From assembly GCA_017415945.1 (NCBI GenBank), contig JAFQDR010000003.1:1-6769 (forward strand): a stretch of 6,769 nucleotides of DNA. Reading direction: 5' to 3'. Made by a program: the position numbers and the translations under genes. The DNA is from Oscillospiraceae bacterium. Its GTDB lineage: Bacteria > Bacillota_A > Clostridia > Oscillospirales > Oscillospiraceae. Shown piece by piece: positions 1-6,584 of this stretch. Under the pieces are notes generated by a model. That model saw only the letters and a program-made list of their open reading frames with translations, ran no database searches and was not told the origin of the DNA. Every line of letters begins with the position of its first letter. Position 1 is the first letter of the stretch.

Positions 1-195
1 GGACGCCATGACACCACGGGGGATAATGAAACTTGCTCACGCTCTCCCACGGACTTGAGGGGAAGCCCTGCGGCATACGCCAGCCCATTCGCAAAGGCAG
101 CGGTGCTGTGGAGTTATGACAGCCTTACCAAAGGCGGCTTGGATTATCCCCACTCGTCAGGGTGCGTGGCAAATATGACGGGAACAACGAAGTAA
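1..195 (+). other. Unassigned left-edge region: open frame to TAA at 193-195 or folded RNA
   Basis: Frame 1 is open from the window edge to a TAA at 193-195, giving 64 residues that end SGCVANMTGTTK, with the stop only 9 nt before a terminator-like hairpin. That is the layout of a gene end, so this may be the 3' end of a gene starting outside the window. I recognise no domain, and the residue composition is not convincingly protein-like. The same stretch also has RNA-like pairing: GGGGATAAT (19-27) is a perfect inverted match to ATTATCCCC (143-151), and inside it lie short hairpins at 58-69, 98-108 and 122-135. The two readings cannot be separated from one sequence. Confidence 0.3.
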
Positions 196-204
196 AACAA
201 AGTC

Positions 205-268
205 AAAACAGCCGTGCCGAACTCTGCCTATATGTATGTGGCTCCAATCCTTTCGGCACGGCTGTTTT
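205..268. terminator. 17-bp perfect inverted repeat, likely rho-independent terminator
   Basis: The arms 205-221 (AAAACAGCCGTGCCGAA) and 252-268 are exact reverse complements, separated by 30 nt. The GC-rich stem is flanked by A4 on the left and T4 on the right, so it could stop transcription in both directions. It sits just after the TAA at 193-195 and before the small gene at 356, so it probably separates upstream transcription from the recombinase module. The 30-nt loop is long for a terminator and the T-tract is short. A protein-binding or recombination role is therefore possible. Confidence 0.6.
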
Positions 269-282
269 CAAAATCAGATACC

Positions 283-312
283 ATGCGCTGACGGAACCCT
301 CTGTCAGCGTAT
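283..312. repeat. Compact 13-bp hairpin with tetraloop
   Basis: Positions 283-295 pair with 300-312 across a 4-nt loop (ACCC). There are 13 pairs, two of them G-U, with a fully matched core CGCTGAC/GTCAGCG. It lies 14 nt after the preceding terminator-like repeat and 44 nt before the ATG at 356. No run of T follows directly, so it is not a textbook terminator. It could be a leader structure for the small gene, an operator, or a recombinase or relaxase site. I see no clear promoter between it and the gene. Confidence 0.45.
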
Positions 313-355
313 TCATGTGATTTTGAACACTATTATGACAAGGAAGGAGACTATC

Positions 356-577
356 ATGGATCAGTTGAAATACCCCGAAAACAACAGCCACGATGTTCTT
401 GTAGACATCCGCGATGTGTCTGTTGACAAGGAACTGCCGAAAGAAGAACGTATTGCCGCTTTTGTACGCCAGATCAAAAATCCTTACCGTTTCCGCTGTG
501 GCAACTTTGTCATTAACGCCAGTTTTGCCGGAAACGGTACCACATTGGAAGAATGTCTGAAAGGAATTTTACGATGA
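356..577 (+). CDS. Small conserved hypothetical protein of ICE type (73 aa, possibly DUF6870)
   Basis: The start is ATG 356, chosen because AGGAAGGAG (341-349) lies 6 nt upstream. The frame stays open further left to 236, but that extension runs through the two hairpins and has no ribosome site. The 73-residue product is soluble, with no signal peptide or membrane segment. An acidic N-terminal half contains VDIRDVSVDK, followed by a basic helix-like stretch EERIAAFVRQI. The conserved-looking core NPYRFRCG is followed by short beta-like and helical stretches ending TTLEECLKGILR. From memory this resembles a small protein of clostridial integrative conjugative elements that recent Pfam releases call DUF6870; the family number is not certain. 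Function is unknown. Its place directly before the recombinase operon suggests a role in, or simple linkage to, element mobility. It may be transcribed separately, because a promoter lies just after its stop. Confidence 0.75.
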   Translation: MDQLKYPENNSHDVLVDIRDVSVDKELPKEERIAAFVRQIKNPYRFRCGNFVINASFAGNGTTLEECLKGILR

Positions 578-700: not shown

Positions 701-2329
701 ATGCCTAAATTCAAAGCAACAGCTTACATTCGCCTGTCCTACACGGATGACCGTTCCAGCGAAAGTGACAGCGTATCCAACCAGCGCAAGCTCATCGAAA
801 ACTTTGTGGAACGAAACCCGGACATTGAAATTGTTTCAGAAAAGATTGACGACGGGTACAGTGGTATAATTTTTGATCGCCCAGCGTTTAAGGAAATGAT
901 GCAGGATGTAACCGATGGGAACATCAACTGTGTGATCGTCAAAGACCTATCGCGCCTTGGACGTGAGTATATCGAAACTGGACGGTATCTGCGGCGCATC
1001 TTTCCTGCCTACGGAGTGCGGTTTATCGCGATCACCGACAGCATCGACACCGCCCACGAAAACAGCGGCGACGATCTGACTGTATCAGTCAAAAACATTA
1101 TGAACGAAGCCTACTGCCGAGATATTTCCATCAAGACCCGTTCCTCCTTGGATATTAAGAGACGTAACGGCGATTTTGTAGGAGCGTTCACAGTGTACGG
1201 TTATATGAAATCCGAAGAAAATAAAAATCGGCTTGTACCCGATCCCTACGCTTCCCGCGTGGTGAAAGATATTTTCCGTATGCGCCTGGACGGCTCCAGC
1301 GCATTGCGGATTGCAAACGAACTGAATCGGCTCGGTATCCTCTCACCGTTGGCATACAAGAAAAACTGCGGTCTGCCATATGCGAAAAACGGCTATGCAG
1401 ATAAAGAGGACTGCAAATGGTCGGCTACTACAATCATCCGCATTTTGCAGGATGAAACCTATACCGGTGTGTTGGTACAGGGCAAGCAAGGAACACAGCA
1501 TTACAAAATCAAACAGATAGAACAACGTCCGGAATCCGAATGGATACGGATACCTGACGCCCATGAAGCACTTATCAGTAAACAGGACTTTGATCTTGTA
1601 CAGCGTATCCGCCGCCTGGACACCCGTACTTCCCCGAAAGAGGATACCGTGTATCTATTCTCCGGCATTTTGATCTGCGGCTGCTGCGGCTCTCGCATGA
1701 CCAGAAAAACCAACCGTGCAAACGGCAAGGAATACCACTATTATTATTGTCCCACCGGAAAGAAAAAAGGCTGTGACAGTCCCACGATGATCAAAGAAAG
1801 CGAACTGATTGAATGTGTCCGACTGAGCCTGAAATCCTACATAGACAATGTAGCCTGTCTGGAAACCATGCTCAAAAGTATCGACCAAAGCACCATCAAT
1901 CAGGCACTTATCCGGGAATATGCTGATCACATCAAATCAAACGAACAGCGTTTGGAGCAGGCAATGGAGTTCAAAAGCCGCCTGTATGAAAATCTTGTAA
2001 GCGGGATGCTGACCAAAGAGGAATATGCTGACTATAAGTCAAAGTACACCAAACAGGCTGAAAACATCCGTGAAAGTATCCGTGCGCTGCAAGAAAAACT
2101 GGAGGACATTCGGGAAAACAAAAGCGAGAGAAACCGCTGGATCAGCCATTTCACGCAGTTTTCCTCGCTTGAAACCTTAGACCGCAAGGCGGTTGTACAC
2201 ATGATTCAAAGCATCCATATTCTCAGCAAGACGGAGCTGAAAATTACATTCGCCTACGAAGATGAGTATGCCAAGGCATTGAAACTCGTCGCACAGGCTG
2301 AACAAATCGAATACAGAAAGGTGGGATAA
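701..2329 (+). CDS. Large serine recombinase 1 (site-specific integrase/resolvase family, 542 aa)
   Basis: First gene of a three-recombinase operon. ATG 701 follows AAAGGAG (685-691). The N-terminal resolvase-type catalytic domain (about residues 5-150) has YIRLS with the nucleophile Ser13 and Arg11, then DDGYSG at 51-56, FDRP at 58-61, and KDLSRLGR at 81-88 carrying the active-site arginines. The recombinase DNA-binding domain covers about 160-305, including WSATTIIRIL and YTGVLVQGK. A zinc-ribbon follows: Cys326 and Cys329 (with an extra Cys328) plus Cys350 and Cys358. The coiled-coil insertion is about 410-470, with LYENLVSGMLTKEEY at 428-442. The length fits large serine integrases and transposases such as TndX. 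Members cut both strands at att sites, form a phosphoserine link and rotate the ends to exchange DNA. No damage is visible. Compared with the other two, this one lacks the TGYY motif before the coiled coil. Confidence 0.95.
   Translation: MPKFKATAYIRLSYTDDRSSESDSVSNQRKLIENFVERNPDIEIVSEKIDDGYSGIIFDRPAFKEMMQDVTDGNINCVIVKDLSRLGREYIETGRYLRRIFPAYGVRFIAITDSIDTAHENSGDDLTVSVKNIMNEAYCRDISIKTRSSLDIKRRNGDFVGAFTVYGYMKSEENKNRLVPDPYASRVVKDIFRMRLDGSSALRIANELNRLGILSPLAYKKNCGLPYAKNGYADKEDCKWSATTIIRILQDETYTGVLVQGKQGTQHYKIKQIEQRPESEWIRIPDAHEALISKQDFDLVQRIRRLDTRTSPKEDTVYLFSGILICGCCGSRMTRKTNRANGKEYHYYYCPTGKKKGCDSPTMIKESELIECVRLSLKSYIDNVACLETMLKSIDQSTINQALIREYADHIKSNEQRLEQAMEFKSRLYENLVSGMLTKEEYADYKSKYTKQAENIRESIRALQEKLEDIRENKSERNRWISHFTQFSSLETLDRKAVVHMIQSIHILSKTELKITFAYEDEYAKALKLVAQAEQIEYRKVG
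2317..2324 (+). promoter_or_regulatory. Ribosome site fixing the TTG start of recombinase 2
   Basis: AAAGGTGG lies at the very end of recombinase 1, before its TAA (2327-2329), with 8 nt to TTG 2333. No in-frame ATG exists before the catalytic YVRLS motif of the second protein. TTG 2333 is therefore the only start that has both a ribosome site and a complete catalytic domain. Confidence 0.6.
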
Positions 2330-2332
2330 GCA

Positions 2333-3991
2333 TTGGCACGAAAGAGCAGAAAAGAAGCCGCTCAGACAGTATTGCCGCAAGCAGATACATCTTGCCATGC
2401 TGCTATTTATGTCCGTCTTTCTGTGGAAGATAAGCATACCCGCACCGCGTCGATTGAAACACAGCAGTTGATTATCAGTGCATATCTGGAACGCAACCCG
2501 GAGATCAGCGTTTATGATACCTATATCGACAACGGCGTGAGTGGCAGAACCTTTCACCGCCCAGCCTTTCAGCAGATGCTTTCCGATATTGAAGCCGGTC
2601 AGATAAACTGCGTGATTGTGAAAGACCTTTCCCGGCTCGGCAGAAATTCCATCGACACCGGCTATTATATCGAACAATATTTCCGACTCCGCAATATCCG
2701 CTTTATCTCGGTCACAGAAAATTATGACAGCAATGATCCAGATACTCATTCCGGCATCTTGCTTCCTTTGCGGAATATGATAAATGAAGCTTATGCACTC
2801 GATATCAGCCGCAAAATTAAGGCACAGCAACGACAGGCAATGAAAGACGGAAAATATGTAGGCGGTCGTACTCCTTATGGCTATGTAAAAGCACCGGATG
2901 ACTGCCATCAGTTAATTATTGACCCTGATGCCGCTGTGGTAGTACAAAAAATATTTCAATGGGCATCAGAGGGAGCAGGACTGAACACAATTGTTCTTCG
3001 GTTGAATGCGTGTGGCTATGTCACACCCAGCCATCATAAACAGTCACAGGGCATCATTGTGAATGATAACCTGATTGGTACAGGTAAATGGCAAACACGC
3101 ACAGTTGCAAAAATCCTCCGTTCTCCTGTCTATACCGGGGATCTGGTGCAGGGCGTCTCAAAAATTATTGACCACCAACAGGTAAAAGCTGATAAAGACG
3201 AGTGGACGATAGTACGGGATACCCATGAAGCCATCATTGACCACGATTTGTATGACCGCGTACAGAAGGTACTGGACACCACTGCCGATAAATACAAAGA
3301 CAAGGAGATCAACGCCTACACCCCAAACATTCTGAAGGGAAAGATTTTCTGCGCTGAATGCGGCGGTAATCTCCACCGTCAGCGGAATATCCGTAAAAAA
3401 TCTGCGGACATATACCGATACCACTGTATTACCCGCAGCCGTGTTGGAGAACACGCCTGTACCCACATTCAATCCATTCGTGAGGATGAACTGCTGGACA
3501 TTCTTTCCAATATGCTTCAGCGAGAACTGGATACTACCCTGGGTACGTATTCACTCTCATTAACAGAAGATACCGGGTACTATGCTGAACGCACAGAGAT
3601 ACAGGGAAAGATCACGAGCCGCAGACAGGAAATGGAGCGATTGCGTGGTTTGGTACGAAGCCTGTATGAGAATTATATCCGAAATGTGCTTACGTCAGAT
3701 GAGTATTTCGCATACAAGCAGAAATATGAAGCTGGGATAGAACGGTTATCCGAAGAAATCGTACAGCTTGAGAGCGGATTGAGCACTATAGAAAAGCAGA
3801 TCGCACAGTACAAAGAGTTAAAGCAGGACGCAGCAAACATCCGTGGCAACCCTGAACTGACTGCTGCCCTGATCGAACGTCTTATCGACCGTGTGGAGGT
3901 GACCGGAGATAATCAGATCACCGTCCGTTATCGCTTTCAGAGCGAATTCCAAAATTGTGAGGAGGTGTTGAACCTGTGCAGAAATATATAA
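2333..3991 (+). CDS. Large serine recombinase 2 (552 aa, TTG start)
   Basis: Starts at TTG 2333, three bases after the stop of recombinase 1, so the two are almost certainly co-transcribed and translationally coupled. A basic N-terminal extension of about 22 residues precedes the catalytic domain. Motifs: YVRLS with nucleophile Ser30 and Arg28, DNGVSG at 66-71, HRP at 75-77, and KDLSRLGR at 97-104. The recombinase domain is about 175-315 (YGYVKAPDD; TVAKILRSPVYTGDLVQG). The zinc-ribbon uses CAEC at 340-343 plus Cys365 and Cys376. The coiled coil is about 425-495, introduced by TGYYAER (414-420) and containing LYENYIRNVLTSDEY (444-458). All expected residues are present. It is clearly related to its neighbours but well diverged, so this is not a recent duplication. 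It presumably recombines the same element ends, either alone or together with the other two enzymes. Confidence 0.95.
   Translation: MARKSRKEAAQTVLPQADTSCHAAIYVRLSVEDKHTRTASIETQQLIISAYLERNPEISVYDTYIDNGVSGRTFHRPAFQQMLSDIEAGQINCVIVKDLSRLGRNSIDTGYYIEQYFRLRNIRFISVTENYDSNDPDTHSGILLPLRNMINEAYALDISRKIKAQQRQAMKDGKYVGGRTPYGYVKAPDDCHQLIIDPDAAVVVQKIFQWASEGAGLNTIVLRLNACGYVTPSHHKQSQGIIVNDNLIGTGKWQTRTVAKILRSPVYTGDLVQGVSKIIDHQQVKADKDEWTIVRDTHEAIIDHDLYDRVQKVLDTTADKYKDKEINAYTPNILKGKIFCAECGGNLHRQRNIRKKSADIYRYHCITRSRVGEHACTHIQSIREDELLDILSNMLQRELDTTLGTYSLSLTEDTGYYAERTEIQGKITSRRQEMERLRGLVRSLYENYIRNVLTSDEYFAYKQKYEAGIERLSEEIVQLESGLSTIEKQIAQYKELKQDAANIRGNPELTAALIERLIDRVEVTGDNQITVRYRFQSEFQNCEEVLNLCRNI
3959..3967 (+). 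promoter_or_regulatory. Strong ribosome site fixing the GTG start of recombinase 3
   Basis: GAGGAGGTG, a near-perfect match to the anti-Shine-Dalgarno complement, lies inside the end of recombinase 2, 8 nt before GTG 3976. It is the strongest ribosome site in the operon and supports the GTG start and the 16-nt gene overlap. Confidence 0.75.
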
Positions 3992-5502
3992 TTGCGCTGT
4001 ATATCCGCCTGTCTATTGAGGACTACAAATACGAAAGCATGAGTATTGAAAATCAACGGTTGGAACTGAACGCCTATGTCAGAACCATGCCGGAAGCCGA
4101 TTATGCCGAAATAATTGAGTTTGTGGACAACGGATTTACCGGTACGAATTTTGAACGTCCGCAGGTACAGAAACTCCTTGAAATGGTGCGCGAGAACAAA
4201 ATCGACTGCATCATCGTGAAAGACTTTTCACGCTTTGGGCGTAACAGCATTGAAACTCCGTATTTTCTTGAACGTGTATTTCCTCTGTTTCATACACGGT
4301 TTATTTCTCTCGGAAATGACTATGACAGTGCCAAACTCAAAGGCGACACCGGCGGTATGGATGTTGCCTTTCAGTATCTTATCAGTGAATACTACAGCCG
4401 CGATATGTCCATGAAAACCAAAAGTGCTAAGTATGCCAAAATGCAGCGCGGCGAGTATCAGAGCAAAATCTGTCCTTATGGCTACCGGAAAAGTGCGGAT
4501 GGCAGAATGGAACCCGATCCCGAAGCCGCAGAAGTAGTACAGTTGATTTTTCAGCTTGCTGCGGACGGCACAAATGCCACAGCTATTACAAAAGAACTAT
4601 ATAACCGTGGAATACCAACTCCCGGTGAATACAAGGCCGCGAGAGGAAACCATACGCATGATGTATCACGAAGTCGCGGTATATGGAGCAATTCCACCGT
4701 CCTGCGTATTCTGGAGGATGAACGGTATGCCGGGACATATGTTATCGGCAAACGCGCTGTTATCGAAGTCGGCGGTACAAGAAGCCGCAAAAGAGACCGA
4801 GACAAATGGTTCATCATACCCGATCACCATCCTGCCATTGTTGAGAAAGATCTTTTTGACAAGGTTCAGATGACTCAGCAGCGTTTTTCCATTCCCAATA
4901 AAAAGCAGCGGGATTATCCGCTCCGAAGCAAAGTGTTCTGTGGATGCTGCCACCATGCGCTTTCCAGAATCGCGCAAAAGACACCGTATTTCATGTGCCG
5001 TCACTCACAGGCAGACCCTTCAAGCCGTTGTTATTCTCTACGGGTAAATGCCGCTGAATTAGAACAGGCAGTATTCCAAACACTGAAAAAGCAACTGGAA
5101 CTGACTCTTTCATGCAGTACAGACGACAAGGCACAAACCGGTTATTATGTTGCCGAACGCTCAGAATATGAACGACAGGTAGAAGCCTTGGAGAATGACA
5201 AACAAAACCTGTTTGAACGCTTTGTCATGGGTGAGATAGATATGGATACTTATAAAGCGGAAAAGGCTGCGTATGACGAGATAATTACACGCACCAACAA
5301 TGCCTTTGCCGCCATAGCAACCCAGGCGAAACAGAAGCAGGAGGAACAGGAACGTCAAAACAGCCGAGGCGAGATTTGGTCTGCAATTACTGAATCTACC
5401 GGACTGACACCGGAACTGACCGATCTGCTGATTGAAAAAGTGATGGTGTATCCTGATAATCGCCTCGACATTATCTACAAAGTGAAAGACCTTTTTGAAT
5501 GA
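3976..5502 (+). CDS. Large serine recombinase 3 (508 aa, GTG start)
   Basis: Last gene of the operon. It overlaps recombinase 2 by 16 nt, which suggests coupled translation. The catalytic domain starts at once: YIRLS with nucleophile Ser13 and Arg11, DNGFTG at 51-56, ERP at 60-62, and KDFSRFGR at 82-89, a slightly variant arginine motif with Phe for Leu. The recombinase domain is about 160-305 (CPYGYRKSADG; STVLRILEDERYAGTYVIGKR). The zinc-ribbon has CGCC at 322-325 plus Cys341 and Cys352. The coiled coil is about 395-460, introduced by TGYYVAER (388-395) and containing LFERFVMGEIDMDTY (412-426). This TGYY/coiled-coil arrangement is shared with recombinase 2. The gene is intact and lies only about 90 bp from the point where the invaded integrase resumes, the usual position of an integrase beside its element end. 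Its last 32 nt are overlapped, on the other strand, by the foreign tail of the broken integrase. Confidence 0.95.
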   Translation: MQKYIIALYIRLSIEDYKYESMSIENQRLELNAYVRTMPEADYAEIIEFVDNGFTGTNFERPQVQKLLEMVRENKIDCIIVKDFSRFGRNSIETPYFLERVFPLFHTRFISLGNDYDSAKLKGDTGGMDVAFQYLISEYYSRDMSMKTKSAKYAKMQRGEYQSKICPYGYRKSADGRMEPDPEAAEVVQLIFQLAADGTNATAITKELYNRGIPTPGEYKAARGNHTHDVSRSRGIWSNSTVLRILEDERYAGTYVIGKRAVIEVGGTRSRKRDRDKWFIIPDHHPAIVEKDLFDKVQMTQQRFSIPNKKQRDYPLRSKVFCGCCHHALSRIAQKTPYFMCRHSQADPSSRCYSLRVNAAELEQAVFQTLKKQLELTLSCSTDDKAQTGYYVAERSEYERQVEALENDKQNLFERFVMGEIDMDTYKAEKAAYDEIITRTNNAFAAIATQAKQKQEEQERQNSRGEIWSAITESTGLTPELTDLLIEKVMVYPDNRLDIIYKVKDLFE

Positions 5503-5510
5503 CTAAATGA

Positions 5511-5562
5511 GAAAATCGACCTCGCAAATGCCGTATTCCAGACATCTGTAAGGTCGATTTTC
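5511..5562. terminator. 12-bp perfect inverted repeat after the recombinase operon
   Basis: GAAAATCGACCT (5511-5522) and AGGTCGATTTTC (5551-5562) match exactly, with a 28-nt loop that itself holds CAGA/TCTG arms (5539-5548). It lies 8 nt after the last recombinase stop. A T6 run (5571-5576) comes 8 nt after the stem on the plus strand, further away than in a classic terminator. It probably ends the operon transcript. Because it lies between the last recombinase and the element junction, it could also be part of the recombinase binding site. Confidence 0.5.
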
Positions 5563-5584
5563 CAATAAAATTTTTTGTCAGGTT

Positions 5585-5600
5585 CTTGACATACGGGTGG
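5585..5600. other. Candidate element end (insertion junction in the integrase gene)
   Basis: Reading the minus-strand integrase, family resemblance is complete up to HDLRH, whose last codon is 5599-5597. The next codons give PYVKNLTKNF and match nothing expected in any frame. The junction therefore lies at or just left of 5596. A GA dinucleotide occurs at 5588-5589. TnpX and TndX of Tn4451 and Tn5397 are known to cross over at GA, so this is a reasonable but unproven crossover point. The other end of the element is not in the window. Confidence 0.5.
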
Positions 5601-6584
5601 CGCAGATCGTGGAAGCGAATATCGGGCAGTCCTGCCGCTTTGAGAATGGATTTCAGCTTGTCGTATGCCGTACTTGGATTCATCGGCTTCTCCAGTTCCA
5701 GCAGATTTGGGAATATCCATTCAGTCAGCGCCTGCTCCTTTCGCTCGGTGAGGATGCGAAGTGTGCTTGCCGGCAGACGGATGACGCGTTTGCCTTTTTC
5801 GGTTTTGGTTTCGCCAATTTCCAATTTTCCGCCCTCGCCGTTGCTGACCGATCGCTCGATTTTCAGCGTGCCGCGCTCGGTATCAAGATCACTCCATTTG
5901 AGTCCGCAGATCTCTCCGCGGCGCAGTCCTGTGGTGATCTCGGTGTAGAAGAAGTCACGCCACAGTACTTCGCGCTCGATGGCTTCCATGAATCTGGCAA
6001 GCTCACCTTCGCTTAAAATCTTTTTGTCGGGATAATTGCACTTCGGAATCTTCGTACCGGCGGTCGGATTTTTTGCGATCAGCCGCGCCTGAACAGCCGC
6101 TTCCATCACCTCATGCAGGAGCATATGGATGCTTCGCACGGTGGAATCGGAGAGTCCGTCGCCGTATTTTTCACGGCAATTTTCTCTGCCGTCGCGCTTC
6201 AGCTTGTTGTACATCCGCTGAATCTGCTGTGTGGTGATGAGGCTGATCTGCTTGTCACCGAGTTGGCGGTTGATCTGTTTTGCGTACCTACGGTAGCCGC
6301 GGACGGTGCTCGGACGGAGGGTAACCTCGGCGTAGTCCTTGAACCAACGCTCGAACCATTCGCCGAGCGTCATGCGGCTGTCCTCGGTCAGATCTACGCC
6401 GCGATAGGCTTCGATGGCGCGGTGAAGCTTCGGTAGCAGTTCCTTCTGCGTCTTCGCCTGCACCCATTTGTAGAGGTAGCTGCCGTCCGCCTTGTGTCCG
6501 ATCACGATCGCGCCCTCCCACCGACCGTCCGCACGTTTGCGGATCATACCGTCTCCATTCGGTCTTCGTTTTGCCATGAATGGT

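Follow-up and report, generated by a model that had tools for sequence, protein, structure and literature searches.

Gene organization of the locus

The window analyzed here is the whole stretch of 6,769 nucleotides at the start of contig JAFQDR010000003.1 (Oscillospiraceae bacterium, assembly GCA_017415945.1). It contains three large serine recombinase genes in tandem and in one orientation on the forward strand, the arrangement by which triplet-bearing integrative conjugative elements (ICEs) are recognized. Recombinase 1 (positions 701..2329), recombinase 2 (2333..3991) and recombinase 3 (3976..5502) were each assigned Resolvase, Recombinase and Zn ribbon domains by Pfam. TnpX-type large serine recombinases work as a single recombinase and differ in their use of targets, although the N-terminal catalytic domain of TnpX (PDB 2mhc) is related in sequence to recombinase 3 (E value 6.5e-19). 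Upstream of the triplet, the forward strand carries the 3' part of a conserved non-coding stretch (1..80) and a gene for a DUF6870 protein (236..577; Pfam PF21757), which lies within the element and is also present in a 98%-identical element at locus L044. Downstream of recombinase 3, an inverted repeat (5511..5562; 20-nt arms, 85% complementary) is probably the terminator of the recombinase operon. It is followed on the forward strand by the 24-bp right arm of the element attachment site (5574..5597; TTTGTC...CTTGACATACGGG), which was recognized by a conserved end pattern and partially mirrors the left arm, likewise of 24 bp, in related elements, and then by TG (5598..5599), the putative 2-bp crossover dinucleotide, corresponding to the CA of a catalytic His codon on the integrase strand. 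The triplet is thus located at an extremity of the element, and the distance of 95 bp between the stop of recombinase 3 and the junction dinucleotide agrees with the first-pass annotation, which had placed the break about 90 bp from the last serine recombinase. The window covers only the right end of the element (5.6 kb), its left end lying beyond the contig. A megablast comparison with plasmid and phage collections gave no similar DNA, and a protein search with recombinase 3 at an E limit of 1e-100 yielded no plasmid match and one phage record (54% identity).

On the reverse strand, an open reading frame of 368 aa (5471..6577) combines the N-terminal 327 residues of a tyrosine integrase through HDLRH (5598..6577), which represent the target gene, with a false C-terminal tail (5471..5597) that is read out of the element end. 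It had been proposed that this protein matches its family for 327 residues and then changes abruptly, losing the LGH box and the catalytic Tyr, and an alignment with nine relatives bore this out. The integrase was unbroken up to HDLRH (residues 323-327); beyond this point, eight of the nine relatives read T-F-A-T-H-A-L...GILGHTNASFTLDTYTH and run on to LGHTNASFTLDTYTH, and the window reads PYVKNLTKNFIGK... followed by a stop. Judged by the features of PF00589, the HxxRH box was present, and the LGH box and catalytic Tyr were absent past residue 327; when the frame was cut at the junction, its Phage_integrase match ended at profile position 134 of 172. Since the catalytic Tyr is lost, the integrase is inferred to be non-functional. 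The nearest intact relatives have 387 aa and show 88-92% identity over 93% of the query. As to homologues that might naturally bear the same tail, the intact ones have a normal C-terminus, and the lone tail-bearer, the ninth aligned relative P0079, has a tail (PYVKLKTKK) resembling that of the window and of a type seen at other insertions. Thus, P0079 looks like another interrupted copy.

Right-end junctions and target genes

Loci of the family were gathered via recombinase 3, end patterns or genome searches, with L040-L042 added via the window's integrase. The DNA around relatives of recombinase 3 was retrieved for 39 genome loci and 17 viral-contig loci. The order rec1-rec2-rec3 was found in 46 of these 56 relatives; the other 10 had no ordered triplet, partly because contigs end. 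A conserved element end, TTTGTC-N5-CTTGACA[CT]A-N-GG-GTG, was identified 3' of recombinase 3, mostly at a distance of about 20-220 bp and in some relatives at 0.5-4.7 kb. Eight of 95 loci had no exact match to this pattern and are outside the counts; some of these stem from a contig end (e.g. L036), and others differ by approximately one base (L016, L032 and L033).

When GTG was not required, 119 matches to the element end were found in all fetched DNA, 6 of which had too little flank, and the remaining ones collapsed to 84 distinct flanks. GTG was present at the junction in every one of the 84, and the opposite strand, read in frame, gave HxxRH in 76 (HDLRH in 50). By comparison, 0.4% of the TG sites in the same flank DNA (52/13840) read H..R[HQ], which speaks against a chance pattern. 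The eight exceptions read P*IRH, PHISH, HDLWH, HELSH, QHMSH, YDLRH, QSLPH and HGHTH, and one flank counted among the 76 (L009, HTFRH) lacks any Pfam domain and probably represents an off-target site. Therefore, either off-target insertion or decay does occur. A search of 394 genomes from one order, in which sites were selected by the element end only and with its core left out, gave 22 sites in 21 genomes, and 17 of the sites were flanked by HxxRH; 6 of the 22 sites were previously known, and 12 of the 16 new ones read HxxRH. A reversed-pattern control in the same sample returned 0 among the matches listed.

The interrupted genes were diverse tyrosine recombinases. Among the first 68 distinct flanks, the N-half frame reached 100 aa or more in 51, of which 46 matched Phage_integrase (PF00589) and 37 the SAM-like domain PF14659; five had no PF00589 match at 1e-3. 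Ten flanks besides that of the window were checked individually: the PF00589 match stopped at profile position 134 in six (L001, L017, L041, L053, L055 and L093, the last being a target of the Tn916 integrase kind), L071 and L045 matched best to an earlier part, L028 showed N-terminal integrase domains only and L009 showed nothing. At identity thresholds of 90%, 50% and 40%, 61 N-halves fell into 60, 38 and 26 clusters, respectively. The window's element recurs at L044 (98% identical over 5.6 kb), where the target integrase (L041, same contig) is 31% identical to that of the window, and a third integrase, 32% identical to the window's (L040), is occupied by an element of this type of which the final bases are present. 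With respect to conservation of the putative attB beyond the protein code, the fetched DNA offered only 13 intact integrases as controls.

Left ends and C-terminal halves

The missing C-terminus of the integrase had been predicted to lie at the other end of the element; the window contig shows one end, and the prediction held in related elements. For seven elements, the DNA on the left side was read over as much as 60 kb. In genome G011, an integrase C-half (LGH...Y) was found 51 kb away from the right end, adjoining the left-end sequence TGCC-NN-TACGGTATAAT-N-ACGACA, which was also present to the left of the elements in G002, G005 and G009. This sequence was not found in the fetched stretches of G006, G007 and G008: the left end of G008 is just beyond the fetched stretch, that of G007 is on another contig, and a pattern scan of genome G006 gave no left end.

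Together with those from pattern scans and from a search with a missing C-terminal piece, this made 26 distinct left ends. Three were too near the end of their stretch to read; 19 of the 23 that could be read by eye gave H-T/S...GH...Y, in addition to which one of the three (L134), once given more flank, read LGH...Y. No recognizable C-half was seen in the other four (the second site of L115, L124, L126 and L136), and three of these four lie in genomes G017 and G018, where the right ends are also atypical (L023, HELSH; L014, PHISH). Two left ends with one mismatch are outside these counts, one at which the contig ends after LGH (L132) and one reading LGH...Y (L139). The H, G-H and Y were invariant in 16 aligned C-halves.

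Seven genomes (G001, G002, G005, G008, G009, G011 and G014) carried both element ends on a single contig. Elements with one left and one right end per contig measured 5.4, 51.0, 51.2, 53.4 and 60.2 kb; in G001, two right ends lay 60.1 and 67.0 kb from the left end, and G009 had two left ends. Neither the window nor L044 contained the left-end pattern of the relatives when up to five substitutions were allowed. The search with the missing C-terminal piece retrieved L155, in which the C-half of a relative of the window integrase abuts a diverged left end. Of the 24 positions in the arm of this left end, 16 mirror the right arm of the window. Elements of the window's type may therefore have such a left end, although L155 is not established as the window's own.

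Uninterrupted relatives and crossover point

Uninterrupted relatives were identified for the target genes of three elements. The flanks of the L011 element aligned in register with relative G295 (left 92%, right 95% identity) and overlapped there by exactly TG, with no element between them. Both halves of the target gene also matched one uninterrupted gene of a relative in the case of G014 (N-half 62%, C-half 70% identity) and of G002 (N-half 72%, C-half 87%). In G295, the uninterrupted integrase and its neighborhood were present twice, approximately 10.8 kb apart (L152, 8547-9629 and 19394-20000), so the host element is probably in tandem there.

Serine recombinases make 2-bp staggered cuts. 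The junction triplet was GTG at all 84 right ends, and GTG, ATG and TTG at 16, 9 and 1 of the 26 left ends, respectively; the lone TTG (L126, genome G018) pairs with the atypical right end of the same genome (L014, PHISH). As G is constant at right ends and G, A or T occurs at left ends, the first base belongs to the element on the right and to the target on the left, and the shared overlap is therefore TG, which on the integrase strand is the CA that opens the catalytic His codon. The family thus combines a disrupted target gene with a very short direct repeat, the 2-bp TG, seen at 84 right and 26 left ends (the window contributing one end). On each side, the attachment arms span 24 bp with mirrored TTTGTCGT / ACGACAAA ends; in one common pair, the two arms agree at 15 of the 24 positions.

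Gene content and related arrangements

Ten larger open reading frames of the 51.2-kb G011 element included genes for ParB, a type IV secretion system (T4SS) coupling protein (PF02534), a MobA/VirD2-type relaxase (PF03432), a topoisomerase, an ArdC-like protein and an NlpC/P60 protein. Therefore, at least this member looks like an ICE. The window's element is probably an ICE. L044 extends the latter by 5.3 kb, adding a large protein and a second one whose sigma-factor match is weak and below the family cut-off. The large, repeat-rich protein (L044, 2-4201) is element cargo and, judged from sequence, is probably a surface protein.

Several other arrangements were observed. The 5.4-kb element between the integrase halves of L011 (6245-11634) lacks recombinase 1 and keeps a ParA-like ATPase and an LPD16 protein. 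We considered it as a minimal element and rejected this because recombinase 1 is missing; a deletion derivative is more likely, and this copy may be defective. At L036 (10001-11004), recombinase 3 is 94-99% identical to that of the window and the preceding 10 kb contain neither recombinase 1 nor 2, pointing to truncation or misassembly. In L058 (1517-6454) and L027 (4517-9427), the family's recombinases are directly preceded by another, distant serine-recombinase triplet (31-39% identical), suggesting stacked or fused elements, and two left ends close together in G009 (contig 1, 2845635 and 2852160) and two right ends close together in L002 (12750 and 19715) suggest tandem or partly deleted ones. 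Finally, the conserved stretch of approximately 115-145 nt upstream of the triplet (window 1-80; L044 5260-5410) was found at the same place in L001, L003, L021, L023, L032, L037 and L051. It had no Rfam match; its consensus fold based on eight sequences contained 33 pairs, 7 of them with double-sided changes, and the covariation term was small (-0.7). It is possibly a structured RNA or a regulatory site.

Comparison with known elements

ICEs with serine-integrase triplets are already known. Those of streptococci are described as integrating into mutT, traG and hsdM, the repeats being 2-8 bp long (Ambroset et al., 2016; PMC4701971); as in the family studied here, the triplet lies at one end in the same orientation, a gene is disrupted and the direct repeats are very short. 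They may also strike a gene of another ICE (traG), just as mobile-element genes are struck here. In our family, which occurs mostly in gut Clostridia, the target is instead the HxxRH box of tyrosine recombinases and not one of the published targets (PMC4701971), although the latter vary and a target gene does not strictly define such elements. Streptococcal integrative mobilizable elements (IMEs) can occupy ICE genes such as traG, maff2 and snf2 (PMC5357655). Tn1806-like ICEs have conserved triple serine integrases and target hsdM, snf2 or an Eco57I-type methylase gene; they likewise insert into another ICE (ICESa2603-family), as demonstrated there by conjugation, but it is snf2 of the resident ICE that is hit, not its integrase gene as here (PMC12942858). 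For ICESsuYZDH1-type triplets, four integration sites are given, two of which are named as MutT/Nudix genes (PMC10269897). Multi-targeting large serine recombinases (LSRs), in which one recombinase cluster uses many target gene clusters (Durrant et al., 2022; PMC10083194), resemble our family in this breadth, whereas their account in the accessible text names neither triplets nor tyrosine-integrase targets, and reports target-gene enrichment only outside the multi-targeting clade. Searches of open-licence PMC text yielded no description of such elements targeting tyrosine-integrase genes.

Proposed mechanism and alternative explanations

The window very probably represents the right end of an element whose three serine recombinases integrate site-specifically into tyrosine recombinase genes. 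Dozens of distinct junctions at the HxxRH box support the nested insertion proposed by the first-pass annotation, as do the C-terminal halves beside the opposite element end and the uninterrupted relatives; the junctions, both gene halves, the 2-bp overlap and the breadth of targets were all observed in the family. We suggest the following mechanism. The element's attP would consist of two 24-bp arms around TG, and attB would be the DNA coding for the R-F-H-D-L-R-H-T region of a tyrosine integrase. Strand exchange between them, presumably catalyzed by the triplet, would take place at the TG that corresponds to the CA of the second His codon of HxxRH; because both His codons start with CA, the dinucleotide would be fixed by the catalysis of the target enzyme. 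Insertion would part the HxxRH half from the GH...Tyr half and take away the nucleophile, so that the split integrase would be inactive and the host element's integrase silenced until the inserted element excises, which would restore the gene.

It is highly improbable that the truncated integrase is a naturally occurring form that has a C-terminus of its own, or a decayed gene that came to lie beside the recombinases by chance. A protein with this kind of tail is indeed present in the database (P0079), and the N-half frame is shorter than 250 aa in 16 of 61 flanks of at least 1200 bp, suggesting that some copies are decayed or off-target. However, many unrelated integrases are joined to this element end at one and the same codon, their missing half is located at the opposite end, and relatives without any interruption are available. 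For the family, comparison with these relatives refuted both a natural tail variant and simple decay, and we rejected them.

Two explanations were considered for the choice of target. The somewhat favored one is that any gene with a suitable DNA motif is targeted, the integrase box being simply the commonest match, with no gain from disabling it. Several of the off-target sites are indeed box-like (HDLWH, YDLRH and HELSH), and serine-integrase triplets elsewhere use other conserved genes; the preference for integrases, on the other hand, is strong (76/84), although the data do not separate it from selection. We consider it possible, if rather doubtful, that insertion was selected since it locks or exploits a rival element through antagonism, hitch-hiking or piggy-backing. 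The targets are mobile-element genes, an open N-half of at least 250 aa was kept in 45 of the same 61 flanks, and the other side of the L040 contig (junction L078), with the window's type of element end, lies beside prophage-like genes including a terminase. Nevertheless, an integrase gene that serves only as a harmless and abundant site would lead to the same pattern, and such a conserved DNA site accounts for the data equally well as a benefit from disabling a rival.

For the lineage as a whole, we tentatively propose, with slightly less than even confidence, that conjugative elements evolved integration into a catalytic-site codon of the whole tyrosine recombinase superfamily and that landing immobilizes the host element for as long as the invader stays. 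A target could not change the CA of its catalytic His without loss of function, and therefore any element with a tyrosine integrase would offer a landing site. Thus, site-specific integration would be aimed at the catalytic motif of a superfamily rather than at one gene, with the dinucleotide fixed by catalysis. This would account for a class of truncated 'integrases' in databases and supplies serine-recombinase attachment sites open to direct testing. It also predicts stacking, and possibly mutual immobilization, of mobile elements in gut bacteria.
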